DNA of 32,268 nt from Gammaproteobacteria bacterium. Lineage in GTDB: Bacteria; Pseudomonadota; Gammaproteobacteria; Thiohalobacterales; Thiohalobacteraceae. The notes beneath the pieces were generated by a model that had not been told where the DNA came from, did no database searches, and was given only the letters and a program-made list of their open reading frames with translations. The translations under genes and the position numbers were made by a program. Shown here one piece after another: positions 3,657 to 14,149 of the stretch (its first letter is position 1; every line of letters begins with the position of its first letter). The stretch is taken from NCBI GenBank assembly GCA_016218375.1, contig JACREG010000001.1, positions 1-32,268 of the forward strand. Reading direction: 5' to 3'.

Positions 3657-3668
3657 GCTGAAAATAGA

Positions 3669-3699
3669 CAGGGTGCGGCGGCATTGCCGCCGCACCCTG
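3669..3699. terminator. GC-rich hairpin after glgP
   Basis: A near-perfect palindrome starts 13 bases after the glgP stop. CAGGGTGCGGCG (3669-3680) pairs with CGCCGCACCCTG (3688-3699), and the complementarity continues toward the centre. No U-run follows on the plus strand, so it may be a weak or factor-assisted terminator, or a stabilising 3' hairpin. Confidence 0.5.
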
Positions 3700-3809
3700 C
3701 TCCATTGACCGCTGCCATCCCGCCCTATGCGGATGCCCCCTCCATTTCCACCATCACGGGCCGCTATATAGCCCGAGAGTACGCTATTCCCATCGATCCC
3801 GGACAGACA

Positions 3810-3917
3810 CGGCAATAGCAGGCAAACCGCTCAAGGAAAACAAATCAGTACATTGTTTTCCTTAGGCTTTCGAATCAAGCCTCCGCTACTGGCGTGTAAA
3901 TCGTCCGGCGATTGCTG
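3810..3917 (+). promoter_or_regulatory. Candidate structured 5' leader of the polysaccharide operon
   Basis: Three helices can form in one transcript. P1 pairs 3810-3819 with 3908-3917 (nine pairs with one G-U, plus one A-G mismatch). P2 pairs AAGGAAAACAA (3833-3843) with TTGTTTTCCTT (3853-3863), 11 perfect pairs. P3 pairs AGGCTT (3864-3869) with AAGCCT (3877-3882), directly abutting P2. The fold ends 26 bases before the epimerase start, just ahead of its AAAGGG ribosome-binding site (3929-3934). P2 could equally be a DNA operator for a dimeric repressor. I do not recognise it as a known riboswitch class. Confidence 0.45.
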
Positions 3918-3943
3918 GCGAAAGCTCGAAAGGGTGGCACGAC

Positions 3944-4927
3944 ATGCACGTTTTGATCACGGGTGGCGCGGGCTTTATCGGATCGCATTTGGCAGAACAC
4001 CATCTGGCGCTCGGCGATAAAGTTTATGTGGTGGACAATCTGAGCACCGGTTCCCTCGCGAACCTGAAACCGTTCCGCGGCAATCCCGCTTTACGCTTCG
4101 CCGAGGCGGATATCTTGCGCTGGGACGGGCTGAGCGAAGCGGTCGCCTGGGCGGACCGTATCTATCACATGGCCGCGGTCGTCGGCGTGAAGAAGGTGCT
4201 GGAAGATCCGGTATCCGTCATCGCAACCAACATGTCCGGCACGGAGCGCATCCTGCGCGCCGTCCACCACGGCGGTTGGAATCCGCAGGTCATCGTCGCC
4301 TCGACCTCGGAGGTGTACGGCTTCAACCCAAAAGACAGTTTCGCCGAGACCGACAACATCGTGCTGCCGTCCGCCGGCCGCCTGCGCTGGACCTATGCCG
4401 TGACCAAACTGGCCGACGAGTTCCTCGCCTTTTCCTATGCGCGCAAATATGGCCTGAATATCGTGGTCGTGCGTCTGTTCAATACCATCGGACCGAATCA
4501 GGTCGGTCATTACGGCATGGTGGTGCCCAGCTTTATCAAACAGGCGGTGCACAACGAACCGATCACCGTCTATGGCGACGGCGAGCAGACGCGCTCTTTC
4601 TGCGACGTGCGCGATACCGTGGTGGCGCTGGATCGTCTCGCCGGCTGTCCGGCGGCATGGGGCGAGGTCGTGAACGTCGGCAACGCGCAGGAAATCTCCA
4701 TTCGCGGCCTGGCCGAACTGATCGTGCAATGCGCACACAGCACGTCGCCGTTGCGCTTCATTTCCTATAAGGATGCATACGGCGAAGAATTCGAGGACGT
4801 CACGCACCGGCGTCCGGTGCTCGACAAACTTCGGACACTGACGGGCTTTACGCCGGAGTGGACCTTGACCGATACGCTGAACGACCTGATCGAGAGGGAG
4901 TGCGCAAAAAATCTATATGTAGCCTAG
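3944..4927 (+). CDS. NAD-dependent sugar-nucleotide epimerase/dehydratase
   Basis: A 327-residue extended-SDR protein, a normal length for GalE/WbpP-like UDP-sugar 4-epimerases and related dehydratases. The Rossmann motif GGAGFIGSH is at residues 7-15. The active site shows STSEVYG (Thr121 as the likely catalytic hydroxyl) and the Tyr151-x3-Lys155 pair in WTYAVTK. The substrate cannot be read from sequence; UDP-GlcNAc/UDP-GalNAc or UDP-Glc/UDP-Gal interconversion are both plausible. The start has a good ribosome-binding site (AAAGGG nine bases upstream). It is first in a tight unit, with the glycosyltransferase starting 11 bases after its stop, so it probably supplies the donor sugar for that enzyme. 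Fold and enzyme class are sure; the reaction is inferred. Confidence 0.88.
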   Translation: MHVLITGGAGFIGSHLAEHHLALGDKVYVVDNLSTGSLANLKPFRGNPALRFAEADILRWDGLSEAVAWADRIYHMAAVVGVKKVLEDPVSVIATNMSGTERILRAVHHGGWNPQVIVASTSEVYGFNPKDSFAETDNIVLPSAGRLRWTYAVTKLADEFLAFSYARKYGLNIVVVRLFNTIGPNQVGHYGMVVPSFIKQAVHNEPITVYGDGEQTRSFCDVRDTVVALDRLAGCPAAWGEVVNVGNAQEISIRGLAELIVQCAHSTSPLRFISYKDAYGEEFEDVTHRRPVLDKLRTLTGFTPEWTLTDTLNDLIERECAKNLYVA

Positions 4928-4938
4928 AATGATCCTTC

Positions 4939-6330
4939 ATGGCTACTACGCCCTATTTCATCCTCAGCCCGAACACGGTGCTGAGTATCGTCGGCCTGAT
5001 CCACGGGCCGGACAAAACCGTCCCCAACCCGGCGGAGGATTGGCGCACCGCCAGCGTCGATGTAGTGATCCCCGCCTTCAACGAAGAAAGCAACATCCCC
5101 TTGTGCCTGGCTTCGCTGGCACGCCAGACCCGCAAGCCCACGCGCATCATCCTGATCGACGACGGCAGCCGCGATCGCACAGTCGAATACGCTCAAGCCT
5201 TCTGCGACCTGAACGGCATGGAACTGATCGCGATCCGACGCGCCCATTCCATCGGCAAGACGCCGACCCTGAAACGCCAGTCGCGCGAGTTCGACTCCGA
5301 TGTCGAATTCATTCTCGACGGCGACACGGTGCTGGAATCGGATAACTACATCGACCGCGTGGTGGAAGAACTCTACAAGGGCGCCGGCATCGCCTGTGCC
5401 TGCGGCACGGTGTTGCCGTTGCGCGACCGCGACCGGCACGACATGCTCAAAACCGAAGCGCTGCAAAAATTTCTCGGTGCGCATCCCGAAGCGACTATCT
5501 ATCCCAAGGTAGGTTGGTTTCACCATCTGCAACGCGGCATCACCGACATGTACCGGGATGTCCTGTATTTCTTCCTGCAGAAATTCGTGTACGTGGGGCA
5601 GATGACGTTCTTCGGCAGCATCCTCAACCCGGTGGGTTGCGCCGTCGCGTATCGTCGAGATGTGCTGAAAACCATCGTGTTCGACCGCTACGAGCCGATG
5701 CTCGGCGATGACCTCACCAACTCGGAAGACATCTTCATTGGCTTCGCCATGAACGACAACGGCTACCGCAATATTCAGCTCACCGACGTCTGCGCGCGCT
5801 CGCAGGAACCGGAAGTCGGCCGCGTGCCGGGACAGATCTATCTGTGGTCTTCATCCTTTCTGCAAAGCTGCTACTACTTCGATGAACTGATGCGCAGCCC
5901 GTTCAAGGCGCTCAAACGCCGCCGCCGCAAAAAGCGCGAGCAAGCCGAACTGGCGGCAGGGCTCGCAGACAAACGCATTTATCACGAACAATACCGTCAG
6001 CCCTTCGGCATCGACTACACAATACAATACGGTCGCCCCATCGGTTGGGTGCTGTTCATGTCGGCACTCGAGAAAGTGGCCTTCCCGACGGCGCTGGTGA
6101 TTATGCTCTTGCTACAGTTGTGGGAACCGCTGGCGATCACGCTGATTGCCGAAACGGTCATCGCCACCGGCATCCTGGTCAGCGTGGCCAAGGGACAACG
6201 GCTGGAATATTTATTCAAGGGATTGCTGGTGACACCGCTGCGTTATGCCGTGCTGTTGTTCGACTTCGTCACCATCGGCCGCTTTGCCGCCGACCTGTGG
6301 ATATTCCGCACCCGGAAGTGGCGCAAATGA
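4939..6330 (+). CDS. Family 2 glycosyltransferase with C-terminal membrane segments
   Basis: A 463-residue GT2 enzyme. The GT-A domain begins near residue 36 with VVIPAFNEESN, then IILIDDGSRD. The metal-binding DGD is at 127-129 and a TNSED acidic motif follows later. Where processive synthases have QxxRW, this protein has QIYLW (299-303), keeping Gln and Trp but not Arg. About three hydrophobic segments lie in the last 100 residues; there is no N-terminal membrane segment, unlike PgaC. The basic tail ends RTRKWRK. It sits between an epimerase and a TPR/barrel exporter, which suggests polymer synthesis at the inner membrane. The alternative is a non-processive transferase. No clear ribosome-binding site precedes the ATG, suggesting coupling to the upstream gene. 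Confidence 0.87.
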   Translation: MATTPYFILSPNTVLSIVGLIHGPDKTVPNPAEDWRTASVDVVIPAFNEESNIPLCLASLARQTRKPTRIILIDDGSRDRTVEYAQAFCDLNGMELIAIRRAHSIGKTPTLKRQSREFDSDVEFILDGDTVLESDNYIDRVVEELYKGAGIACACGTVLPLRDRDRHDMLKTEALQKFLGAHPEATIYPKVGWFHHLQRGITDMYRDVLYFFLQKFVYVGQMTFFGSILNPVGCAVAYRRDVLKTIVFDRYEPMLGDDLTNSEDIFIGFAMNDNGYRNIQLTDVCARSQEPEVGRVPGQIYLWSSSFLQSCYYFDELMRSPFKALKRRRRKKREQAELAAGLADKRIYHEQYRQPFGIDYTIQYGRPIGWVLFMSALEKVAFPTALVIMLLLQLWEPLAITLIAETVIATGILVSVAKGQRLEYLFKGLLVTPLRYAVLLFDFVTIGRFAADLWIFRTRKWRK

Positions 6331-8138
6331 AGCTACACTGGATACTCATCCTGGTTTTATTTTGCAGCGCACCACCGACCCTGGCCGCGCCGCCCATTCC
6401 CGATGCCGGCCTGCGCGCCGAAATGCAGGACCAGTGGGCGGATGCAGTAGCCATTTACGAACAGGCGCTGCAAACCAACCCGGCGCAGGCCCCTCTCTGG
6501 GAACGCATCGCCGACATTCGCGCCACCCGGCTCAATGATCCGGCCGGCGCGGCGCAAGCGTTAAGCGAAGCCGTGAAACACGCCCCCAACGATGCGCGGC
6601 TTCACGCCAAGCTGTCGCAGACCCATGCCGTCGCACAGCAAGCGCCGGCCGCGCTGGTTGCGATCGATCGCGCCGTGGAACTCGACCCCGACAATGCTAC
6701 TTACCTGCGCGCCCGCGGCGAGATCGCCGCCTGGAACGGCAACCATGCCGTCGCGCTGGACAGCTATCGGCGCCTGCTCGTCATTGCGCCGAACGATGCC
6801 GACGCGCGTCTCGGCATCGCCCGGATCAACCACTGGCGCGGCGATCTGGCGGAGTCCGAACGTGCCTATCACACGTATCTGTTGCAGCGGCCCGATGCCG
6901 AGGCCGCTTGGATGGAATACATCGCGGTCGTCACCGAACTCGGCGACTACGCACGCGCGCTGGACATGCTGGAAGCCCATGTCCGACGCTTCGGCGACAG
7001 CAGCGCCGCACGCATGCAGACGGCACGCGTGCTGTCCTGGGCACAGCGGCCGACCCGCGCGCTCGCCCTCGTCGAGTCGCTCGATCCAACCCTGCGCGAC
7101 GATTACGCGCTGGGCTACACCCGCACCGTCGCGCTGCACTATGCGCATCGCCCGCGCGAAGCCCTGGCCAGTCTCGCCGACGTCGCCCACCTGCGTCCGG
7201 ACAGCCCGGAAAGCACCGACCTCGCGCGCTTCGTCCGCACCCCGCTGCGTTCCAGCGCCACCCTCGGCTTCACATACGTCGCCGGCTCCGACGACGTATG
7301 TGTGCGCCGCTTCGGTGCGCGCGGGGAATATGTCATCAACCCCGAGACGCGCCTGTTCGGCGGCGGCGATCGGCAATGGTTGCACGCCGACACCGGCAGC
7401 GGTTTTGAAAAACCGGACGGCGGCACCGCCTTCGGCTACAACCGGGCGTGGCTGGGCATCCAGCATCGGCTGTCGCCCGCGCTCTCGTTGGACGGCCAAG
7501 TGGGTAACGGCAGCGGCGAAGGCGACGGCCGCTTCATTTATCAACTCGGCGCGGACATCCAGCCGGTCGACGCATTGGCCCTGCGCTTGTCGCGCCGGCA
7601 GGATCTGCACACGGTGTCGCCGCGCGCCGCCGCACTCGGCATCGAACGGCGCGCCAACACCCTCGACGCAACCTGGACACCCGATCTGCGCTACACCGTC
7701 GCCAGCCGCTTCGCCTACGACACTTTCTCCGACGACAACGACCGCTGGGAAGCCCAACTCGCGCCGCGCCGCGCGGTCCTGCGCACCCAACGATTCAACC
7801 TGGATATGGGTATCAGCGGCGTCTGGTTCGGTTACGACCGCGATCCGGGCAATGGCTACTATGCCCCATCGCGCTACCAGCGCTATGCGCTGACCGCCTT
7901 CGGCTACTGGAAAATCAGCGACGACGACGGCGTCAGCGTGGCGCTCGGCTTCGGCCCCTACAAAGACAACACCCTGGGCGGTTACCGCACCGGCAGCGAC
8001 ATCTCGGCCGAAGGCTTCTTCGGCATTTATCGCGACTGGTATCTCAACGTGAAGGCTGGAGTATCCGACTACGGCGGCGGCGACACCGGCGCCTACCGCT
8101 CGCGTCTATTCGAGGTCAATCTGACACGCCGCTTTTGA
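6327..8138 (+). CDS. TPR-repeat outer-membrane beta-barrel protein (YaiO/BcsC/PgaA-like)
   Basis: The ATG at 6327 overlaps the glycosyltransferase stop in an ATGA. This start gives 603 residues with a clean signal peptide (MKLHWILILVLFCSAPPTLA); the same frame is open further upstream, but that part lies inside the glycosyltransferase. Residues about 22-300 are helical TPR-type repeats. Residues about 315-603 look like a beta-barrel with alternating aromatic and charged residues, a GYYAPSRYQ stretch reminiscent of BcsC barrels, and a terminal Phe (LTRRF), as in many outer-membrane proteins. BcsC, PgaA and related proteins use this periplasmic TPR plus outer-membrane barrel design to export polysaccharide. 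Here it is inferred to secrete the product of the preceding glycosyltransferase. Architecture is secure; the polymer is unknown. Confidence 0.85.
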   Translation: MKLHWILILVLFCSAPPTLAAPPIPDAGLRAEMQDQWADAVAIYEQALQTNPAQAPLWERIADIRATRLNDPAGAAQALSEAVKHAPNDARLHAKLSQTHAVAQQAPAALVAIDRAVELDPDNATYLRARGEIAAWNGNHAVALDSYRRLLVIAPNDADARLGIARINHWRGDLAESERAYHTYLLQRPDAEAAWMEYIAVVTELGDYARALDMLEAHVRRFGDSSAARMQTARVLSWAQRPTRALALVESLDPTLRDDYALGYTRTVALHYAHRPREALASLADVAHLRPDSPESTDLARFVRTPLRSSATLGFTYVAGSDDVCVRRFGARGEYVINPETRLFGGGDRQWLHADTGSGFEKPDGGTAFGYNRAWLGIQHRLSPALSLDGQVGNGSGEGDGRFIYQLGADIQPVDALALRLSRRQDLHTVSPRAAALGIERRANTLDATWTPDLRYTVASRFAYDTFSDDNDRWEAQLAPRRAVLRTQRFNLDMGISGVWFGYDRDPGNGYYAPSRYQRYALTAFGYWKISDDDGVSVALGFGPYKDNTLGGYRTGSDISAEGFFGIYRDWYLNVKAGVSDYGGGDTGAYRSRLFEVNLTRRF

Positions 8139-8163
8139 TTGCGGCTATCCGATATTCGCATCT

Positions 8164-8201
8164 GGTCGATTCCAGCGGTCGATTCCAGCGGTCGATCCCA
8201 G
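8164..8201. repeat. Three tandem copies of a 13-base repeat
   Basis: GGTCGATTCCAGC occurs at 8164-8176 and 8177-8189 as perfect copies, with a third copy altered at one base and at its end (8190-8201). It lies just after the barrel gene stop. It may be simple slippage; no function is evident. Confidence 0.8.
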
Positions 8202-8254
8202 TAGCCAATCCAGACTCCCGAAATTCACTCAACTCGAATCGCTCGAGCTCCGCT

Positions 8255-9049
8255 CTACTTCACCGCCGGCGGCTGCTCCCGACCACGCAACACACCCCCG
8301 GTCATGCTGGCGAGGTTGTTGCGGATGAAATTTTCCTGTGCGCCGAGCGCGTTAAACATGCCCGCGACGGTTTGTTGGGTAACGTACTCTTCCAAATCGG
8401 TGGCGGGCTTGGCGACGGGTGCGGTCGGCGCTGCCGGTGTTTCCGCGGGTGTTGCAGCGTTCGGTGCCGGATAGGCATCGAGCAGTTCCTTGTACACCAG
8501 CGGCGCGCCGCTGGTGGCGAGCTGTTAGGAAATGACTGGGCTCAGCGCCATCTCCAGGATCGATGCGGTCTTGTCTTTAAGTGCCTCGGTGCCGGCAGTC
8601 TTGTCGCCGTCGAGCAACTGGCGTGCTTCGGTCGGCGTGAGCTGCGACAGCGCGGCTTGAAGGATCGGCGCGGCGCCGGGGATGGCGTGTTCGGCGGCTT
8701 GGTTCATCAACACCGACAAGAGTTTCGCCTGCGGATCGGCGTTGAGATCGCGCGCCACGCCGAGAACCATTCCAAGGGGCGGCGGCAACAGGATGCGCGC
8801 GACCGGGTTGTCGAGATAGCCGCCCGGTCTGGCCAGGTTGGTCACGACGGTCGTCACGCCCTTGCCGAGTTCGCGCGTGTAAACGCTGGCCAGCGTCTTT
8901 TTCAATTGTTCTTGCGCCGAGCGGGTCAGATCCTGTTGCAGCGTATCGAAGCTGGTCGGCGCACACGCCAGTAACAGCGCGCAGAACGGCAGCATCGACG
9001 CTAGCGGCACACGTCTACGCGGGGCCTGCGGGTGCGGGTGTTTGTGCAT
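8255..9049 (-). pseudogene. DUF4197-family lipoprotein gene interrupted by one in-frame stop
   Basis: Starting at the ATG at 9049, an arginine-containing n-region and hydrophobic stretch end in the lipobox LLAC (Cys29), so the product would be a lipoprotein. The DUF4197 pattern follows: a KGVTTVVTNLARPGGYLDNP block, then IPGAAPILQAALSQLTPTEA. At codon 175 a TAA (8525-8527) stops translation, and the same frame continues without shift. The continuation carries the family's C-terminal part: YKELLDAY, a low-complexity Ala/Pro insert, then LEEYVTQQTVAGMFNALG. A single base change would restore a 264-residue protein. An in-frame GTG at 9103 could extend the N-terminus but spoils the signal peptide. 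The family function is unknown. A sequencing error or readthrough cannot be excluded. Confidence 0.8.
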
Positions 9050-9075
9050 GGCTGGGCTCGTAGAGAACGTATGCG

Positions 9076-10404
9076 ATGGCTTATGATAGCCGAATGAACG
9101 CACCGCATGCAGGTCAAGACGACATCGCCAAAACCCTGGGACTTGCCACGTCCACCGCCCAGCGCAACTGGCGTAACCGGCGCTGGCGACGCTGGGGTGG
9201 TCTGGCCGCAGTGGTGACGATAGGTGTTGCCGCGCTGCTGCTGTGGAATGCCGGTGAACGCGGCGCGGCGCCGCACTATCAGACCCAGGAGGCGCGGCGT
9301 GGCGATCTGACCGTGATGGTCACCGCCACCGGCAATCTGCAACCCACCAATCAAGTGGATGTGGGCATCGAGGTCTCCGGCACCGTCGCCAGCGTCGAGG
9401 TCGACTACAACGATGCGGTACGCGTCGGTCAAGTGCTGGCGCGCCTGGATACCAGCCGCTTGGAGGCGCAAGCGCACAAGGCCGAGGCCGGTCTGGACGC
9501 CGCGCGGGCGCGGGTGACGCAAATGCAGGCGACGTTGACCGAGACCGGCACCACCCTCGCCCGGCTGCGCGCCATGCACAAAAAGACCGGCGGCAAAGTG
9601 CCCTCGCAACAGGATCTGGATACCGCCGACGCGGCGTTCAAACGCGCGCAAACCGAGGTCGCCAGCGCGCAGGCCGCCGTCGCCGAATCCGCGGCGACCC
9701 TCAAACTCACGCAGACCGATCTGACCAAGGCGGTGATCCGCTCGCCCATCGACGGCATTGTGCTGGTGCGCGCGGTGGAACCCGGACAGACGCTGGCTGC
9801 TTCGTTCCAAGCGCCGGTGTTGTTCACGCTCGCCGAGGATCTGACCAAAATGGAATTGCATGTAGACGTGGACGAAGCCGATGTCGGTCAGGTCAAACAA
9901 GGGCAGACGGCGACGTTCAGCGTCGACGCCTATCCGGACCGGCGTTTCCCGGCGCAGGTGGCGCAGGTGCGTTACGGCGCGCAAGCCGTCGAAGGCGTGA
10001 CCACGTACAAGACCGTGTTGAACGTCGACAACACCGATCTGGCCTTACGTCCGGGCATGACCGCCACCGCCGATATTCTCGTGCAGAAGGTCGGCGATGC
10101 GCTGCTGATTCCCAATGCCGCGCTGCGCTTCACACCGCCTGCGCAGACCGACGCAGCCACGGATACCGGCAGCGTAGTCGGCATGCTGCTGCCGCGTCCG
10201 CCACGTAGTGCGTCCAAAACATATACGCAGGAACCCAATCACGGTGCCGATCAACGCGTCTGGGCGCTGCGCGACGGTCAAGCGCACGAAGTCGCGATCA
10301 AAGTCGGCGCCACTAACGGCGTGCTGACCCAAGTGCTGTCCGGTGCCATCGAACCCGGCATGGCCTTGATTACCGATGTCGTGAATCCAACCGCAACGCC
10401 ATGA
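9076..10404 (+). CDS. MacA-like periplasmic adaptor of an ABC efflux pump (HlyD/RND adaptor family)
   Basis: A 442-residue membrane-fusion protein. A basic N-terminus and one membrane helix (about residues 40-57) anchor it. A lipoyl/barrel-sandwich half follows (GNLQPTNQVDVGIEVSGTVA), then a long coiled coil (about 130-215) with Ala-rich heptads and the second lipoyl half (IRSPIDGIVLVRAVEPGQTL). A beta-barrel and membrane-proximal domain complete it. It would link the inner-membrane permease to a TolC-type channel, which is not encoded here. The start at 9076 is preferred because GAGAA lies upstream; 9094 is an alternative with no ribosome-binding site. It is divergent from the DUF4197 gene by 26 bases. 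Its stop overlaps the ATPase start in ATGA, so the three genes form one operon. Confidence 0.92.
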   Translation: MAYDSRMNAPHAGQDDIAKTLGLATSTAQRNWRNRRWRRWGGLAAVVTIGVAALLLWNAGERGAAPHYQTQEARRGDLTVMVTATGNLQPTNQVDVGIEVSGTVASVEVDYNDAVRVGQVLARLDTSRLEAQAHKAEAGLDAARARVTQMQATLTETGTTLARLRAMHKKTGGKVPSQQDLDTADAAFKRAQTEVASAQAAVAESAATLKLTQTDLTKAVIRSPIDGIVLVRAVEPGQTLAASFQAPVLFTLAEDLTKMELHVDVDEADVGQVKQGQTATFSVDAYPDRRFPAQVAQVRYGAQAVEGVTTYKTVLNVDNTDLALRPGMTATADILVQKVGDALLIPNAALRFTPPAQTDAATDTGSVVGMLLPRPPRSASKTYTQEPNHGADQRVWALRDGQAHEVAIKVGATNGVLTQVLSGAIEPGMALITDVVNPTATP

Positions 10405-11117
10405 GCGACACGCACGCCAACACGCCCTTGATCGAATTGCAGGGCGTGACCAAAGTCTACGGCCGTGGTGCGGCGGCGATGCAGGCGCTGCGCGGCGTGG
10501 ATCTGCGCATCGACGCCGGCGAGTTCGTCGCGGTGATGGGACCGAGCGGCTCGGGTAAATCCACCTGTCTGAATATTCTCGGCTGTCTGGATACGCCGAC
10601 CGCCGGCACCTATCGCTTCGGTGGCGTCGAGGTCGGCGGCCTGTCGCGCAATCAGCGCGCGGAGCTGCGCCGGCATTATCTGGGCTTCGTGTTTCAAGGT
10701 TTCAATCTGCTCAACCGCACCACGGCGCTGGAAAATGTCGAACTGCCGCTGTTATATCGCGGCATTCACCTCGCCGAACGGCATCGCCTGGCACGCGAGG
10801 CCTTGACCGCCGTCGGCCTGGCGGAGTGGGCGACGCACACGCCCGGCGAACTGTCCGGCGGCCAGCAACAGCGCGTCGCCATCGCGCGCGCCATCGTCAC
10901 CGCGCCGGATGTGTTGTTCGCCGACGAACCCACCGGCAATCTCGACAGCGCGCGCAGTCGCGAGATCATGGAACTGCTGACGCGCTTCAACCGCGAGCGC
11001 GGTCTCACCATCGTCATGGTGACGCACGAAGCGGACATGGCCGCGTTCGCCAGCCGCAGCGTGCGTTTCGTCGACGGCCGGGTCGCCGCCGACACCCGCA
11101 GCACGGAGGCCGCCTGA
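10401..11117 (+). CDS. MacB/LolD-type ABC transporter ATPase
   Basis: A 238-residue nucleotide-binding subunit complete in all motifs: Walker A GPSGSGKST (47-55), signature LSGGQQQR (from 151), Walker B VLFADEP (Asp175-Glu176) and the H-loop VTHE (His209). The sequence around the Q-loop (LGFVFQGFNLL) is characteristic of the MacB/LolD/FtsE branch. It hydrolyses ATP at the cytoplasmic face to drive the type VII (mechanotransmission) permease encoded immediately downstream. In MacB proper, ATPase and permease are one chain; here they are separate, as in many related operons. The substrate (macrolide, peptide, lipoprotein or other) cannot be told. The start codon overlaps the adaptor stop. Confidence 0.95.
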   Translation: MSDTHANTPLIELQGVTKVYGRGAAAMQALRGVDLRIDAGEFVAVMGPSGSGKSTCLNILGCLDTPTAGTYRFGGVEVGGLSRNQRAELRRHYLGFVFQGFNLLNRTTALENVELPLLYRGIHLAERHRLAREALTAVGLAEWATHTPGELSGGQQQRVAIARAIVTAPDVLFADEPTGNLDSARSREIMELLTRFNRERGLTIVMVTHEADMAAFASRSVRFVDGRVAADTRSTEAA

Positions 11118-12323
11118 ATGGTCTGGAATGCGCTGCTGCTGGCCCTGCGCGAGATTCGCCGCAATGTGCTGCGGTCGTGTCTCACCATCCTCGGCATCGT
11201 CATCGGCGTCGCGGCGGTGATCGTCATGGTGACGCTGGGCGGCGGCGACACCGCGCAAGTGACGGCGAAGATCGCCAGCCTCGGCACCAATCTGCTGATG
11301 GTGCGGCCGGGACAACGCATGGGCTTCGGCCAGATGTCCACCGCGGCGCAGTTCGATCTCGCCGACGCCGAGGCCGTCGAACGCGAGATCCGTTCCGTGC
11401 TCGCCATCTCGCCGGCCTCGACCGCGCCGACCACCGCGGTATTCGGCAATCGCAACTGGTCCACCAGCGTCACCGGCATCGATAACCGCTATTTCGGCGT
11501 GCGCAACTGGACGCTGGCGAGCGGCCGCGAATTCACCGACAGCGAACTGCGCGCCGGTTCGTCGGTGTGCATCGTCGGCGCCACGGTGCGCAAGGAATTG
11601 TTCGGTGCTCAAGACCCGCTCGATAACAAACTGCGTCTGGAAAAACTGTCCTGCACGGTGATCGGCCTGTTGCAGGCCAAGGGCCAATCCACCATGGGCT
11701 CGGACCAGGACGACTTGGTGCTGATGCCGCTGCGCGCCTTTCAACGCCGCATCGCCGGCAACCAGGATATCGGCCTGATCCAAGTGTCGGTACGCGACGG
11801 CGCATCGACCGAACAAGTGAAGCAAGACATCGAAGACCTGCTGCGCACGCGCCGCCACATCGCGCCCAGCGAAGACGACGACTTCCAGGTGCTGGACATG
11901 AAGGAGATCACGCAAATGCTCGCCGGCACCACTCAGGTGCTGACGGCATTGCTCGGCGCGGTCGCCGCCGTGAGTCTGCTGGTCGGCGGCATCGGCATCA
12001 TGAATATCATGCTGGTGTCGGTCACCGAGCGCACCCGCGAGATCGGCATCCGTCTGGCCATCGGCGCGCTGGAACGCGAGGTGCTGATGCAGTTTCTGGT
12101 CGAGGCCGTCGTGCTCGCGTCGTTCGGCGGACTGACCGGCATCGTGCTCGCACTCGCCGCCTCGGTGGTGCTCGCCGATCTGATGAGCATCCCGTTCGTG
12201 TTCAATCCCGGAATCGTTGTGTTGGCATTCCTGTTTTCCGCTATAGTCGGCGTGGTTTTCGGCTTCTTTCCCGCGCGCACGGCGGCCCGGCTCGATCCCA
12301 TCGAGGCACTGCGCCACGAGTAA
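11118..12323 (+). CDS. MacB-like ABC transporter permease (FtsX family)
   Basis: The start codon follows the ATPase stop with no gap. The 401-residue protein has the MacB permease layout. The first membrane helix (about 20-40, SCLTILGIVIGVAAVIVMVT) leads to a large periplasmic domain of about 220 residues. Three further helices sit near the C-terminus, including SLLVGGIGIMNIMLVSVTER, and the FtsX-type tail ends PARTAARLDPIEALRHE. It would couple ATP hydrolysis to movement of the periplasmic adaptor rather than carry substrate through the membrane. Together with the two genes before it this is a complete inner-membrane tripartite efflux unit lacking only an outer-membrane channel. Confidence 0.94.
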   Translation: MVWNALLLALREIRRNVLRSCLTILGIVIGVAAVIVMVTLGGGDTAQVTAKIASLGTNLLMVRPGQRMGFGQMSTAAQFDLADAEAVEREIRSVLAISPASTAPTTAVFGNRNWSTSVTGIDNRYFGVRNWTLASGREFTDSELRAGSSVCIVGATVRKELFGAQDPLDNKLRLEKLSCTVIGLLQAKGQSTMGSDQDDLVLMPLRAFQRRIAGNQDIGLIQVSVRDGASTEQVKQDIEDLLRTRRHIAPSEDDDFQVLDMKEITQMLAGTTQVLTALLGAVAAVSLLVGGIGIMNIMLVSVTERTREIGIRLAIGALEREVLMQFLVEAVVLASFGGLTGIVLALAASVVLADLMSIPFVFNPGIVVLAFLFSAIVGVVFGFFPARTAARLDPIEALRHE

Positions 12324-12327
12324 TGTC

Positions 12328-12388
12328 TATAATCTCTAGAGTCTGAACCCGCTCACACTTTGCCGAAACAAATTCGGAAATAATTTGT
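12328..12388 (+). promoter_or_regulatory. Candidate -10 box and palindrome before the diguanylate cyclase
   Basis: A consensus TATAAT (12328-12333) begins four bases after the permease stop. No good -35 is visible. About 35 bases further on is a palindrome, ACAAATT (12368-12374) with AATTTGT (12382-12388), separated by seven bases. It could be an operator or a leader hairpin. The short AT-rich gap (117 bases) suggests the cyclase gene has its own promoter. Confidence 0.45.
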
Positions 12389-12440
12389 CGCATACTGGTG
12401 TACGCAACACGGGACGAACGACTTGGGAACCTTGGCCATT

Positions 12441-13454
12441 ATGCACGCCATCACCAGACAAACCGCCTTGACCGCGCGCATACTCGCACAGCAGTTTCTG
12501 TTCGAAGGCGAACGCGCGGACCTGATCGACTGGCTGCTGCCGCACTGCCAGTTACGTCAGCTCGCGCCCGGGTGTGTGCTGCTCACACCCAAACAAACCG
12601 CGGATCGCATCTATCTCATTCTGCAAGGCGAGGTCGAAGTGCGCGTGGGCCGGCACGGCGGCCAACTCATCGCCACCTTGGGAAGCGGGCAATGCGTCGG
12701 CGAGATGTCGGTGATCGAAGGCATGCCGCCCTCGGCGGAGGTGATTGCGCGCGGCGCCTGCACGGCGATTACCATCGAAGGCGCGGCCTTACGCACCCTG
12801 CTCGATCATTCCCAGGTGTTCGCGCGCAACCTGCTCCGACTGCTCTCCCGCCGTCTGCGCCACGACAATCAACTGGTACGCCAGAGCCTGGAATCGCAAG
12901 CCCTGTCCGAACAAGACGCGCGCCGCGATCCGCTCACCGGACTGCACAACCGGCGCTGGCTGAACGAGACCCTGCCCAAGTTGATCGGACACCGCGGCGC
13001 GCGGTGCAAGCTGTGTCTGCTGATGCTCGATATCGACCATTTCAAACGCTACAACGACAGCGTCGGCCATATCGCCGGCGACCAGGCGCTGATCGCCGTG
13101 GCCAACACCCTCGAAGCCCAGATTCGCGACGGCGACCAGGCCGTGCGTTTCGGTGGCGAGGAATTCCTGGTCGTGTTGCCCGATACGAATCTTAAAGATG
13201 CACGACCGATCAGCGAACGACTGCGTCACAGCGTGCAACAGACCGCCATCTTCGACCGTGACGGCGACGCGTTACCCAGTGTGACGCTGTCGATCGGATT
13301 GGCGGAATGGGCCGCGTTCGAAACGCCCGAACAGCTCATCGCCCGCGCCGATGCCGCGCTGTATCAAGCCAAGCATCAAGGCCGCAACCGCGTGGCACTC
13401 AGCCCCGCCGCCCTGCCTGGACCGGCGCGGCTGCGGCGGGTGAAGAATGCCTAA
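12441..13454 (+). CDS. Diguanylate cyclase with N-terminal cyclic-nucleotide-binding-like domain
   Basis: It makes cyclic di-GMP from two GTP. Residues about 20-130 form a CRP-like cNMP-binding domain (DRIYLILQGEVEVRVG, then GQCVGEMSVIEGMPPSAEV); no DNA-binding domain follows. The GGDEF domain (about 165-330) starts RRDPLTGLHNRRWL and has an intact GGEEF active site (238-242). The inhibitory site RDGD (229-232) is exactly five residues upstream, so product inhibition is expected. There is no membrane segment, so the protein is cytoplasmic. The ATG at 12441 is chosen over a TTG at 12423. Whether the sensor binds cAMP, another ligand or none is unknown. It is a possible regulator of the exopolysaccharide unit at 3944-8138, which is inference only. 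Confidence 0.92.
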   Translation: MHAITRQTALTARILAQQFLFEGERADLIDWLLPHCQLRQLAPGCVLLTPKQTADRIYLILQGEVEVRVGRHGGQLIATLGSGQCVGEMSVIEGMPPSAEVIARGACTAITIEGAALRTLLDHSQVFARNLLRLLSRRLRHDNQLVRQSLESQALSEQDARRDPLTGLHNRRWLNETLPKLIGHRGARCKLCLLMLDIDHFKRYNDSVGHIAGDQALIAVANTLEAQIRDGDQAVRFGGEEFLVVLPDTNLKDARPISERLRHSVQQTAIFDRDGDALPSVTLSIGLAEWAAFETPEQLIARADAALYQAKHQGRNRVALSPAALPGPARLRRVKNA

Positions 13455-13462
13455 GGGTGTTT

Positions 13463-13488
13463 GACGGCGTGTGGCAACGCTCGCCGTC
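13463..13488. terminator. Hairpin between two convergent genes
   Basis: GACGGCG (13463-13469) pairs with CGCCGTC (13482-13488) across a 12-base loop, in the 72-base gap between the convergent cyclase and glycine-zipper genes. There is no clear U-run on either side, so termination is possible but not proven. Confidence 0.35.
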
Positions 13489-13526
13489 TCATTCACCGTT
13501 TACTCGCAAAACCAGGTGGTATGCGT

Positions 13527-14084
13527 TTACGGTACAGCGGGTGCAGGGGCGGGCGCGGTAAGCACCAGTTGACCGTTTTCCACCGGGATGCGATCGCCCG
13601 GTTTATGGTCCATGCGGACTTTTCCTTGAGTGTCGCCGAGACGGTAGCTGACGTCGTAGCCGATGACTTCTTTATGGGTATCGGTCACGGTCTGGCAGCG
13701 TTGCTCGGTGGCCGTGTAGGTGTCGTTGGCCTGCATGTTTTTCTGCACGGTATTGCCGGCATAACCGCCGGCCGCGGCACCGGCAACCGTCGCCAGCTTC
13801 TTGCCGGTACCGCCGCCCACCTGATTACCCAGCACGCCACCGATCAGTGCGCCGGTCACTGTGCCGAGCACTCGATGCTCGTCCTTGACCGGTTTCTGCC
13901 GGGTGACCGCGACATCCTCGCAGACCTCCCGCGGCGTTTGCACGGTCTGGGTGATCTCTTTGACGTTCAGCACATCGGCATACGCGGGTTGTTTATTCGC
14001 CAACAGATTGTAGCCGGCGAGCGTACCACCCGCGGCCGCCACAACTACGCCAATCACGATTCCGGTTAACATCGACTTGTTCAT
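13527..14084 (-). CDS. Glycine-zipper 2TM envelope protein (SlyB/17-kDa antigen-like)
   Basis: A 185-residue exported protein. The N-terminal hydrophobic stretch (MLTGIVIGVVVAAAGGTLAG) acts as a signal anchor or uncleaved signal; there is no lipobox Cys. The central glycine zipper (about 93-122, GTVTGALIGGVLGNQVGGGT then AGAAAGGYAGN) matches the family that inserts in or stabilises membranes. The C-terminus (about 130-185) has a Cys-containing region and a VSYRLGDTQGKVRMDH segment typical of these proteins, with an Ala/Pro tail. A very strong ribosome-binding site AGGAGG sits just upstream of the ATG. It faces the cyclase gene convergently. The role is probably envelope integrity; the exact function is not known. 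Confidence 0.85.
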   Translation of the reverse strand: MNKSMLTGIVIGVVVAAAGGTLAGYNLLANKQPAYADVLNVKEITQTVQTPREVCEDVAVTRQKPVKDEHRVLGTVTGALIGGVLGNQVGGGTGKKLATVAGAAAGGYAGNTVQKNMQANDTYTATEQRCQTVTDTHKEVIGYDVSYRLGDTQGKVRMDHKPGDRIPVENGQLVLTAPAPAPAVP

Positions 14085-14149
14085 GGGATTTCCTCCTGGC
14101 GCGCTTGACCGTCGTCACAGCAATGCCAACGCTAGACATAGTTGGAATT

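Follow-up and report, generated by a model that had tools for sequence, protein, structure and literature searches.

Among described exopolysaccharide systems, PgaABCD of Escherichia coli makes poly-beta-1,6-GlcNAc with a GT2 enzyme and a porin built from TPRs and a 16-strand barrel, and one protein, PgaB, combines deacetylase and glycoside hydrolase functions. The Bcs cellulose system likewise has a GT2 synthase (BcsA), a TPR and barrel protein (BcsC) and a periplasmic glycanase (BcsZ), together with BcsB and PilZ. A system of few parts is also known from E. coli, the NGR system (NfrA-NfrB-YbcH with WecB), in which a GT2 enzyme and a TPR outer-membrane protein are accompanied by one donor-making enzyme, a 2-epimerase, and NfrB has its own c-di-GMP control (PMC8669472). 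Here, we analysed a window of 32,268 nucleotides from a gammaproteobacterial genome of the family Thiohalobacteraceae, in which three adjacent genes form a compact unit comparable with these systems. The features considered are as follows.

3657..14149 (no strand): insertion of ~10.5 kb between glgP and malQ, carrying the unit; absent at the site in three same-family genomes
3944..4927 (+): NAD-dependent SDR, predicted UDP-uronate decarboxylase (first read as an epimerase); 327 aa; Pfam Epimerase; UXS/ArnA-type active site
4939..6330 (+): GT2 synthase of the processive type; 463 aa; Pfam Glycos_transf_2; 3 C-terminal membrane helices predicted
6327..6330 (+): ATGA stop/start overlap of the GT2 and TPR-barrel genes, seen in the sequence and kept in relatives
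6327..8138 (+): TPR array and 16-strand outer-membrane barrel, PgaA/BcsC-like exporter, short form; 603 aa; Pfam TPRs and a weak PgaA_barrel match
12423..13454 (+): cyclic-nucleotide-binding and GGDEF protein, putative diguanylate cyclase, in the same insertion

Open reading frames and Pfam matches confirmed the three genes and their coordinates as given in the preliminary description, including the 11-base gap between the SDR and GT2 genes and the ATGA overlap between the GT2 and TPR-barrel genes. The overlap likely couples the translation of the latter two genes and recurs in every listed locus except L060, in which the GT2 frame is interrupted. The three genes are one conserved unit. A GT2 similarity scan of 84,980 genomes returned 29 loci, mostly from Thiobacillus and also from Sulfuriferula, Formivibrio, Extensimonas and a Lysobacter, and 28 of them have the SDR, GT2 and TPR/barrel genes in this same arrangement (the L057 contig ends within the third gene), which rules out that the homologues occur mostly apart. 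The exception is the Lysobacter locus L061, in which a GT2 of 41% identity has neither partner nearby. In a second collection, locus L064 (genome G051; GT2 51%) encodes the same functions in the order TPR-barrel, SDR, dehydrogenase, GT2. When 397 other genomes sampled from the phylum were searched at E 1e-60, the GT2 was found in none, indicating that the system is rare.

Most relatives carry further genes next to the unit. A secreted polysaccharide deacetylase ORF (PF01522) lies directly after the TPR gene in 21 loci, with the CE4 motifs TFDD, NHTxSH and RHP intact, and a GH10-family protein was also detected in 19 of these 21 (>320 bits). Thiobacillus thioparus DSM 505 (L050) is one carrier of the complete set of five genes. 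The deacetylase and the hydrolase are separate genes, unlike the single PgaB, and GH10 replaces the PgaB hydrolase domain. The family has the Pga logic of donor, synthase, deacetylase, hydrolase and porin, of which the window copy is a reduced version. Genes for a deacetylase, a hydrolase or a PilZ protein are missing from the window unit, and the window's genome (86% complete) yielded neither a GH10 nor a homologous deacetylase. The preliminary description had reported this absence correctly for the window unit, but relatives carry the deacetylase and hydrolase next door; the unit therefore looks secondarily reduced rather than minimal by original design. The same description held that known systems (Pga, Bcs, Pel) need more parts, and overlooked NGR/NfrAB. 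It also credited the unit with donor, polymerase and exporter; the synthase and exporter are indeed encoded there, but the predicted donor also needs a dehydrogenase encoded elsewhere.

Other differences from the known systems are evident. PgaD is missing, PgaB is absent in the window, and an extra SDR, with a dehydrogenase, would make a special donor. Compared with Bcs, there is no BcsB or PilZ, the donor enzymes are different, and the GH10 of relatives does not belong to the BcsZ family. A PilZ, PgaD-like or BcsB-like gene, for a c-di-GMP receptor or copolymerase, is missing from the window unit, which has a GGDEF gene in its vicinity; such a receptor or copolymerase is not universal among synthase-dependent exopolysaccharide systems. 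Membership of NfrAB/NGR was rejected because no specific NfrA or NfrB sequence match beyond the TPRs and no NCBIfam match was found. YaiP, also considered as a relative, shares the GT2 domain only.

The third protein resembles a PgaA/BcsC-type exporter, a periplasmic TPR scaffold joined to an outer-membrane barrel. Its AlphaFold2 model (pLDDT 91) combines a TPR array of helices with exactly 16 strands, and Foldseek retrieved BcsC, PelBC and the PgaA barrel 4y25 (TMt 0.83). In hhalign profile comparisons, the barrel aligned with E. coli PgaA (82%), and the comparison with NfrA gave nothing beyond the TPRs. YaiO as the exporter family gave no match. The exporter scores 70 bits on the PgaA equivalog model against a cut-off of 367 and is thus PgaA-like but not PgaA; the PgaC model gives 46 against 422 on the unit.

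The SDR was first described as an epimerase. Its residues suggest instead a UDP-uronate decarboxylase of the UXS/ArnA type, and the epimerase reading is unlikely. We compared the SDR with Table 3 of PMC12820599, which lists Thr118, Ser119, Glu120, Arg144, Tyr147, Lys151, Asn176 and Arg277 for the decarboxylase hUXS1, and Thr432, Ser433, Glu434, Arg460, Tyr463, Lys467, Asn492 and Arg619 for ArnA. The window SDR has T121, S122, E123, R148, Y151, K155, N180 and R289 (or the neighbouring R288) at these positions. The family signature is S[T/S][S/A]E, Y-x3-K, Asn and R-x-P, with an Arg three residues before the Tyr in most members; several relatives have SSSE as the triad, and L064 has SSAE. The S[T/S]SE and R[R/K]P elements are common to the SDR, ArnA and UXS and missing from TviC-like proteins and GalE, and RmlB, GalE and the TviC-like epimerases do not have the residue combination of this family. 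In the tree, the family groups with ArnA and UXS (96/95) on long branches. The SDR is ~37% identical to an annotated UXS and 28–37% identical to the references compared, forming a separate subfamily with a predicted activity. Work on EvdS6 cautions that the conserved Arg and Glu can be dispensable (PMC10338323), so the residue match is a signature and not a proof.

The chemistry from UDP-GlcNAc to UDP-XylNAc, by a 6-dehydrogenase and a decarboxylase (UXNAcS), is known from Bacillus cereus, according to a passage of PMC5078965 citing Gu 2010. With this enzyme and the UXS/ArnA decarboxylases, the SDR has in common its active-site residues and its pairing with a UDP-sugar 6-dehydrogenase. A TviB-type nucleotide-sugar 6-dehydrogenase adjoins the unit in the distant relatives L056, L058, L059 and L064. 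In the window genome (G000), a TviB-like dehydrogenase is encoded on another contig, C93 (646 bits against the curated TviB cut-off of 592), and similar proteins (63–67% identity) are encoded elsewhere in the genome in 10 of 11 other unit-bearing genomes; none was found in the L034 genome at the threshold used. The copies in relatives score 368–506 bits, below the curated cut-off, and models of UDP-glucose dehydrogenase score far lower than TviB on the unit-linked dehydrogenase. The decarboxylase signature together with the TviB-like dehydrogenase leads to UDP-N-acetylxylosamine as the predicted donor; the choice of the SDR between UDP-GlcNAcA and UDP-GlcA is unreadable from sequence.

From the gene content, conservation, predicted folds and motifs, we lean with modest confidence towards a Pga-like exopolysaccharide system of five to six genes, here in reduced form, with a UDP-XylNAc donor, for which we infer the following order of steps. 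The TviB-like dehydrogenase would convert UDP-GlcNAc to UDP-GlcNAcA, and the SDR would strip C6 as CO2, yielding UDP-N-acetylxylosamine. The membrane GT2 would polymerise this sugar and pass the chain over the inner membrane, with a linkage that is probably beta-1,4 because the hydrolase of relatives is a GH10, and the TPR/barrel protein would take the chain over the outer membrane. In the full form, the periplasmic CE4 deacetylase would take off N-acetyl groups and the GH10-like enzyme would trim the chain, as PgaB does on PNAG.

The GH10 proteins of relatives provide a further clue to the polymer. These proteins closely resemble genuine xylanases, and both catalytic Glu residues are retained. 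The residue before the acid/base Glu is Asn in 30 of 30 control proteobacterial GH10s and Ala or Ser in all 18 readable unit-linked copies; the YNDYN position was dropped as a marker because it varied in the controls. In xylanases, the 2-OH of the subsite -1 sugar is presumably in contact with this Asn, and a literature search found nothing supporting such a role. Its loss is as expected if the sugar carries nitrogen, amino or acetamido, at C2, or it could reflect reduced activity instead. The deacetylase in relatives also implies an N-acetyl sugar. These three lines, the dehydrogenase with the decarboxylase, the GH10 change and the deacetylase, meet on a beta-1,4 N-acetylxylosamine chain. We tentatively propose that the polymer may be a secreted homopolymer of this kind, chitin minus the C6 group, that is partly deacetylated and trimmed by a re-tooled GH10. 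The window form, which is devoid of deacetylation, trimming and about five TPRs, would export a fully acetylated chain. The literature searched contained neither a XylNAc polymer nor a GH10 in an exopolysaccharide operon.

Alternatively, UDP-GlcA might give UDP-xylose as the donor for a bacterial xylan, which a GH10 xylanase would trim, with the CE4 enzyme as an acetyl-xylan esterase. The SDR clusters with UXS/ArnA, the GH10 is close to true xylanases, the CE4 family includes acetyl-xylan esterases, and G000 encodes a second, distant dehydrogenase at C162, all of which would suit a xylan. We nevertheless consider a xylan unlikely because the linked dehydrogenase is TviB-like, the GH10 is devoid of the Asn presumed to touch the 2-OH, and no O-acetyltransferase gene was noticed beside the unit. 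It is more doubtful still that the SDR is a UDP-GlcNAcA 4-epimerase giving a GalNAcA-containing polymer like the Vi antigen. Pairing with a TviB-like dehydrogenase is indeed the Vi/b-Cool arrangement (PMC12407052), but in 4-epimerases such as TviC or WbpP the last residue of the SxSE motif is Ser, where this family has Glu, and the RxP arginine is missing; a Ser in uronate epimerases that is Glu in decarboxylases is the reported difference between the two (PMC7984243). TviC-like proteins also form a separate clade in the SDR tree. GH10 enzymes, in addition, work on xylan-type backbones.

Two plasmid loci contain the same SDR subfamily in other contexts. L067 (5768-12155; Legionella adelaidensis) encodes a dehydrogenase, an SDR of the subfamily (43.5%), a glycosyltransferase and an outer-membrane barrel, as in the system analysed here, but the barrel is annotated as YaiO family and a HEAT-repeat protein and a second SDR are present; it is possibly a parallel exopolysaccharide system. 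In L066 (5566-12811; Streptomyces), the SDR and a dehydrogenase accompany MraY-like, TagA-like and LCP proteins, which suggests the same sugar in a wall polymer.

The proposed reduction is accompanied by a change in the exporter. Complete TPR proteins have 769–774 aa where the deacetylase is present (943 aa in L056; in L060, the interrupted GT2 frame accounts for the computed 849 aa), and 514–602 aa where it is absent (window, L034, L041, L054, L055 and L058). The usual difference of 170 aa corresponds to five TPRs; in L034, the C-terminus of the protein is truncated as well, and a contig end cuts the L046 protein. The correlation is imperfect, since L064 has a long TPR array without the deacetylase. 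No true GH10 was found anywhere in the short-form genomes (just 26–28 bit matches in two). A single origin of the short form is unsupported: deacetylase absence is scattered over the SDR+GT2 tree with 6 label changes, at least 3 of them forced by well-supported branches. The barrel tree groups the window, L041 and L054 as a clade (100/99), indicating that some of the short-form copies belong to a single type that has spread; L055 and L058 provide additional cases of the short form. The TPR domain of PgaA binds polymer and modulates PgaB (PMC9384988), and, by analogy, the joint loss of deacetylase, hydrolase and TPRs would fit this picture.

The missing deacetylase and hydrolase and the shortened TPR array might also mark the window copy as the decaying remnant of a five-gene system. 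This is quite improbable: all three frames are intact, three or more lineages carry the short form, and the SDR, GT2 and TPR-barrel genes are under purifying selection (omega ~0.09–0.29, window copy against other short-form copies), which argues that the short form is not debris.

The predicted structure of the GT2 supports an inner-membrane synthase of the processive type. Its AlphaFold2 model (pLDDT 79) has three long C-terminal helices, and the best full-length Foldseek matches in the PDB are Chlorella virus hyaluronan synthase (HAS) and bacterial cellulose synthase BcsA (E ~1e-11), with the lipid-glycan enzymes ArnC and dolichol-phosphate mannose synthase (DPMS) far lower; the TM-scores are moderate (0.45–0.6) and thereby support the class and not the substrate. 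The DDG, DGD and ED motifs are intact, and Q(Q/R)xRW is present as Q-I-Y-L-W with its Arg replaced. The altered motif, Q[IVL][YF][LM]W with Leu or Met for the canonical QxxRW Arg, occurs in 19 of 20 aligned copies. An alternative in which the GT2 adds sugars to a lipid or protein acceptor and the barrel serves as an unrelated exporter or adhesin, as the altered QxxRW and the solitary Lysobacter homologue might hint, is very improbable given the match of the GT2 fold and membrane part to processive synthases, its constant coupling to a PgaA/BcsC-like porin, and the deacetylase and endo-hydrolase of relatives, which imply a long chain. Assignment as a synthase-dependent exopolysaccharide unit is well supported.

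The unit was probably acquired laterally, within the insertion in the glycogen cluster. In three same-family genomes, malQ comes immediately after glgP, with GH57, glgC and a glgA-like gene next in line, whereas the window has between glgP and malQ the three-gene unit, a DUF4197 gene, a MacAB-type exporter and the cNMP-binding GGDEF protein; no long repeats flank 3657-14149. In most Thiobacillus-type loci, the unit is also a few kb from a glycogen cluster. Identity between these and the window is ~41–63% for glycogen genes and 81–88% and 84–91% for SDR and GT2, which indicates lateral transfer of the unit. Contamination of the MAG as the source of the contig was ruled out, as the contig also encodes a GlgP with 97% identity to that of a same-genus genome and 71–80% to others in the family. 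The GGDEF protein is a possible regulator of the unit. The same-genus genome L069 has a different GGDEF-type gene after glgP. The MacAB-like exporter adjoining the unit (9076-12323) comprises an HlyD-type adaptor, an ABC ATPase and a MacB-type permease; the DUF4197 gene (8525-9103, minus strand) starts just within the MacA-like ORF, and a tRNA gene (874-957; Rfam RF00005) lies upstream of glgP.

In summary, the locus encodes a known kind of machine that belongs to a hitherto undescribed family of Pga-like systems, for which an unusual donor is predicted and which possibly makes a new polymer. If the proposed pathway is true, it would represent a new class of synthase-dependent exopolysaccharides made from UDP-XylNAc, a donor for which the literature searched reports no polymer, and the GH10 subfamily with its changed active site would be a direct handle on the substrate. 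The role of the TPR scaffold is a question already raised for PgaA (PMC9384988), and the paired presence and absence of the deacetylase, the hydrolase and five TPRs in this family is a natural experiment on that role.
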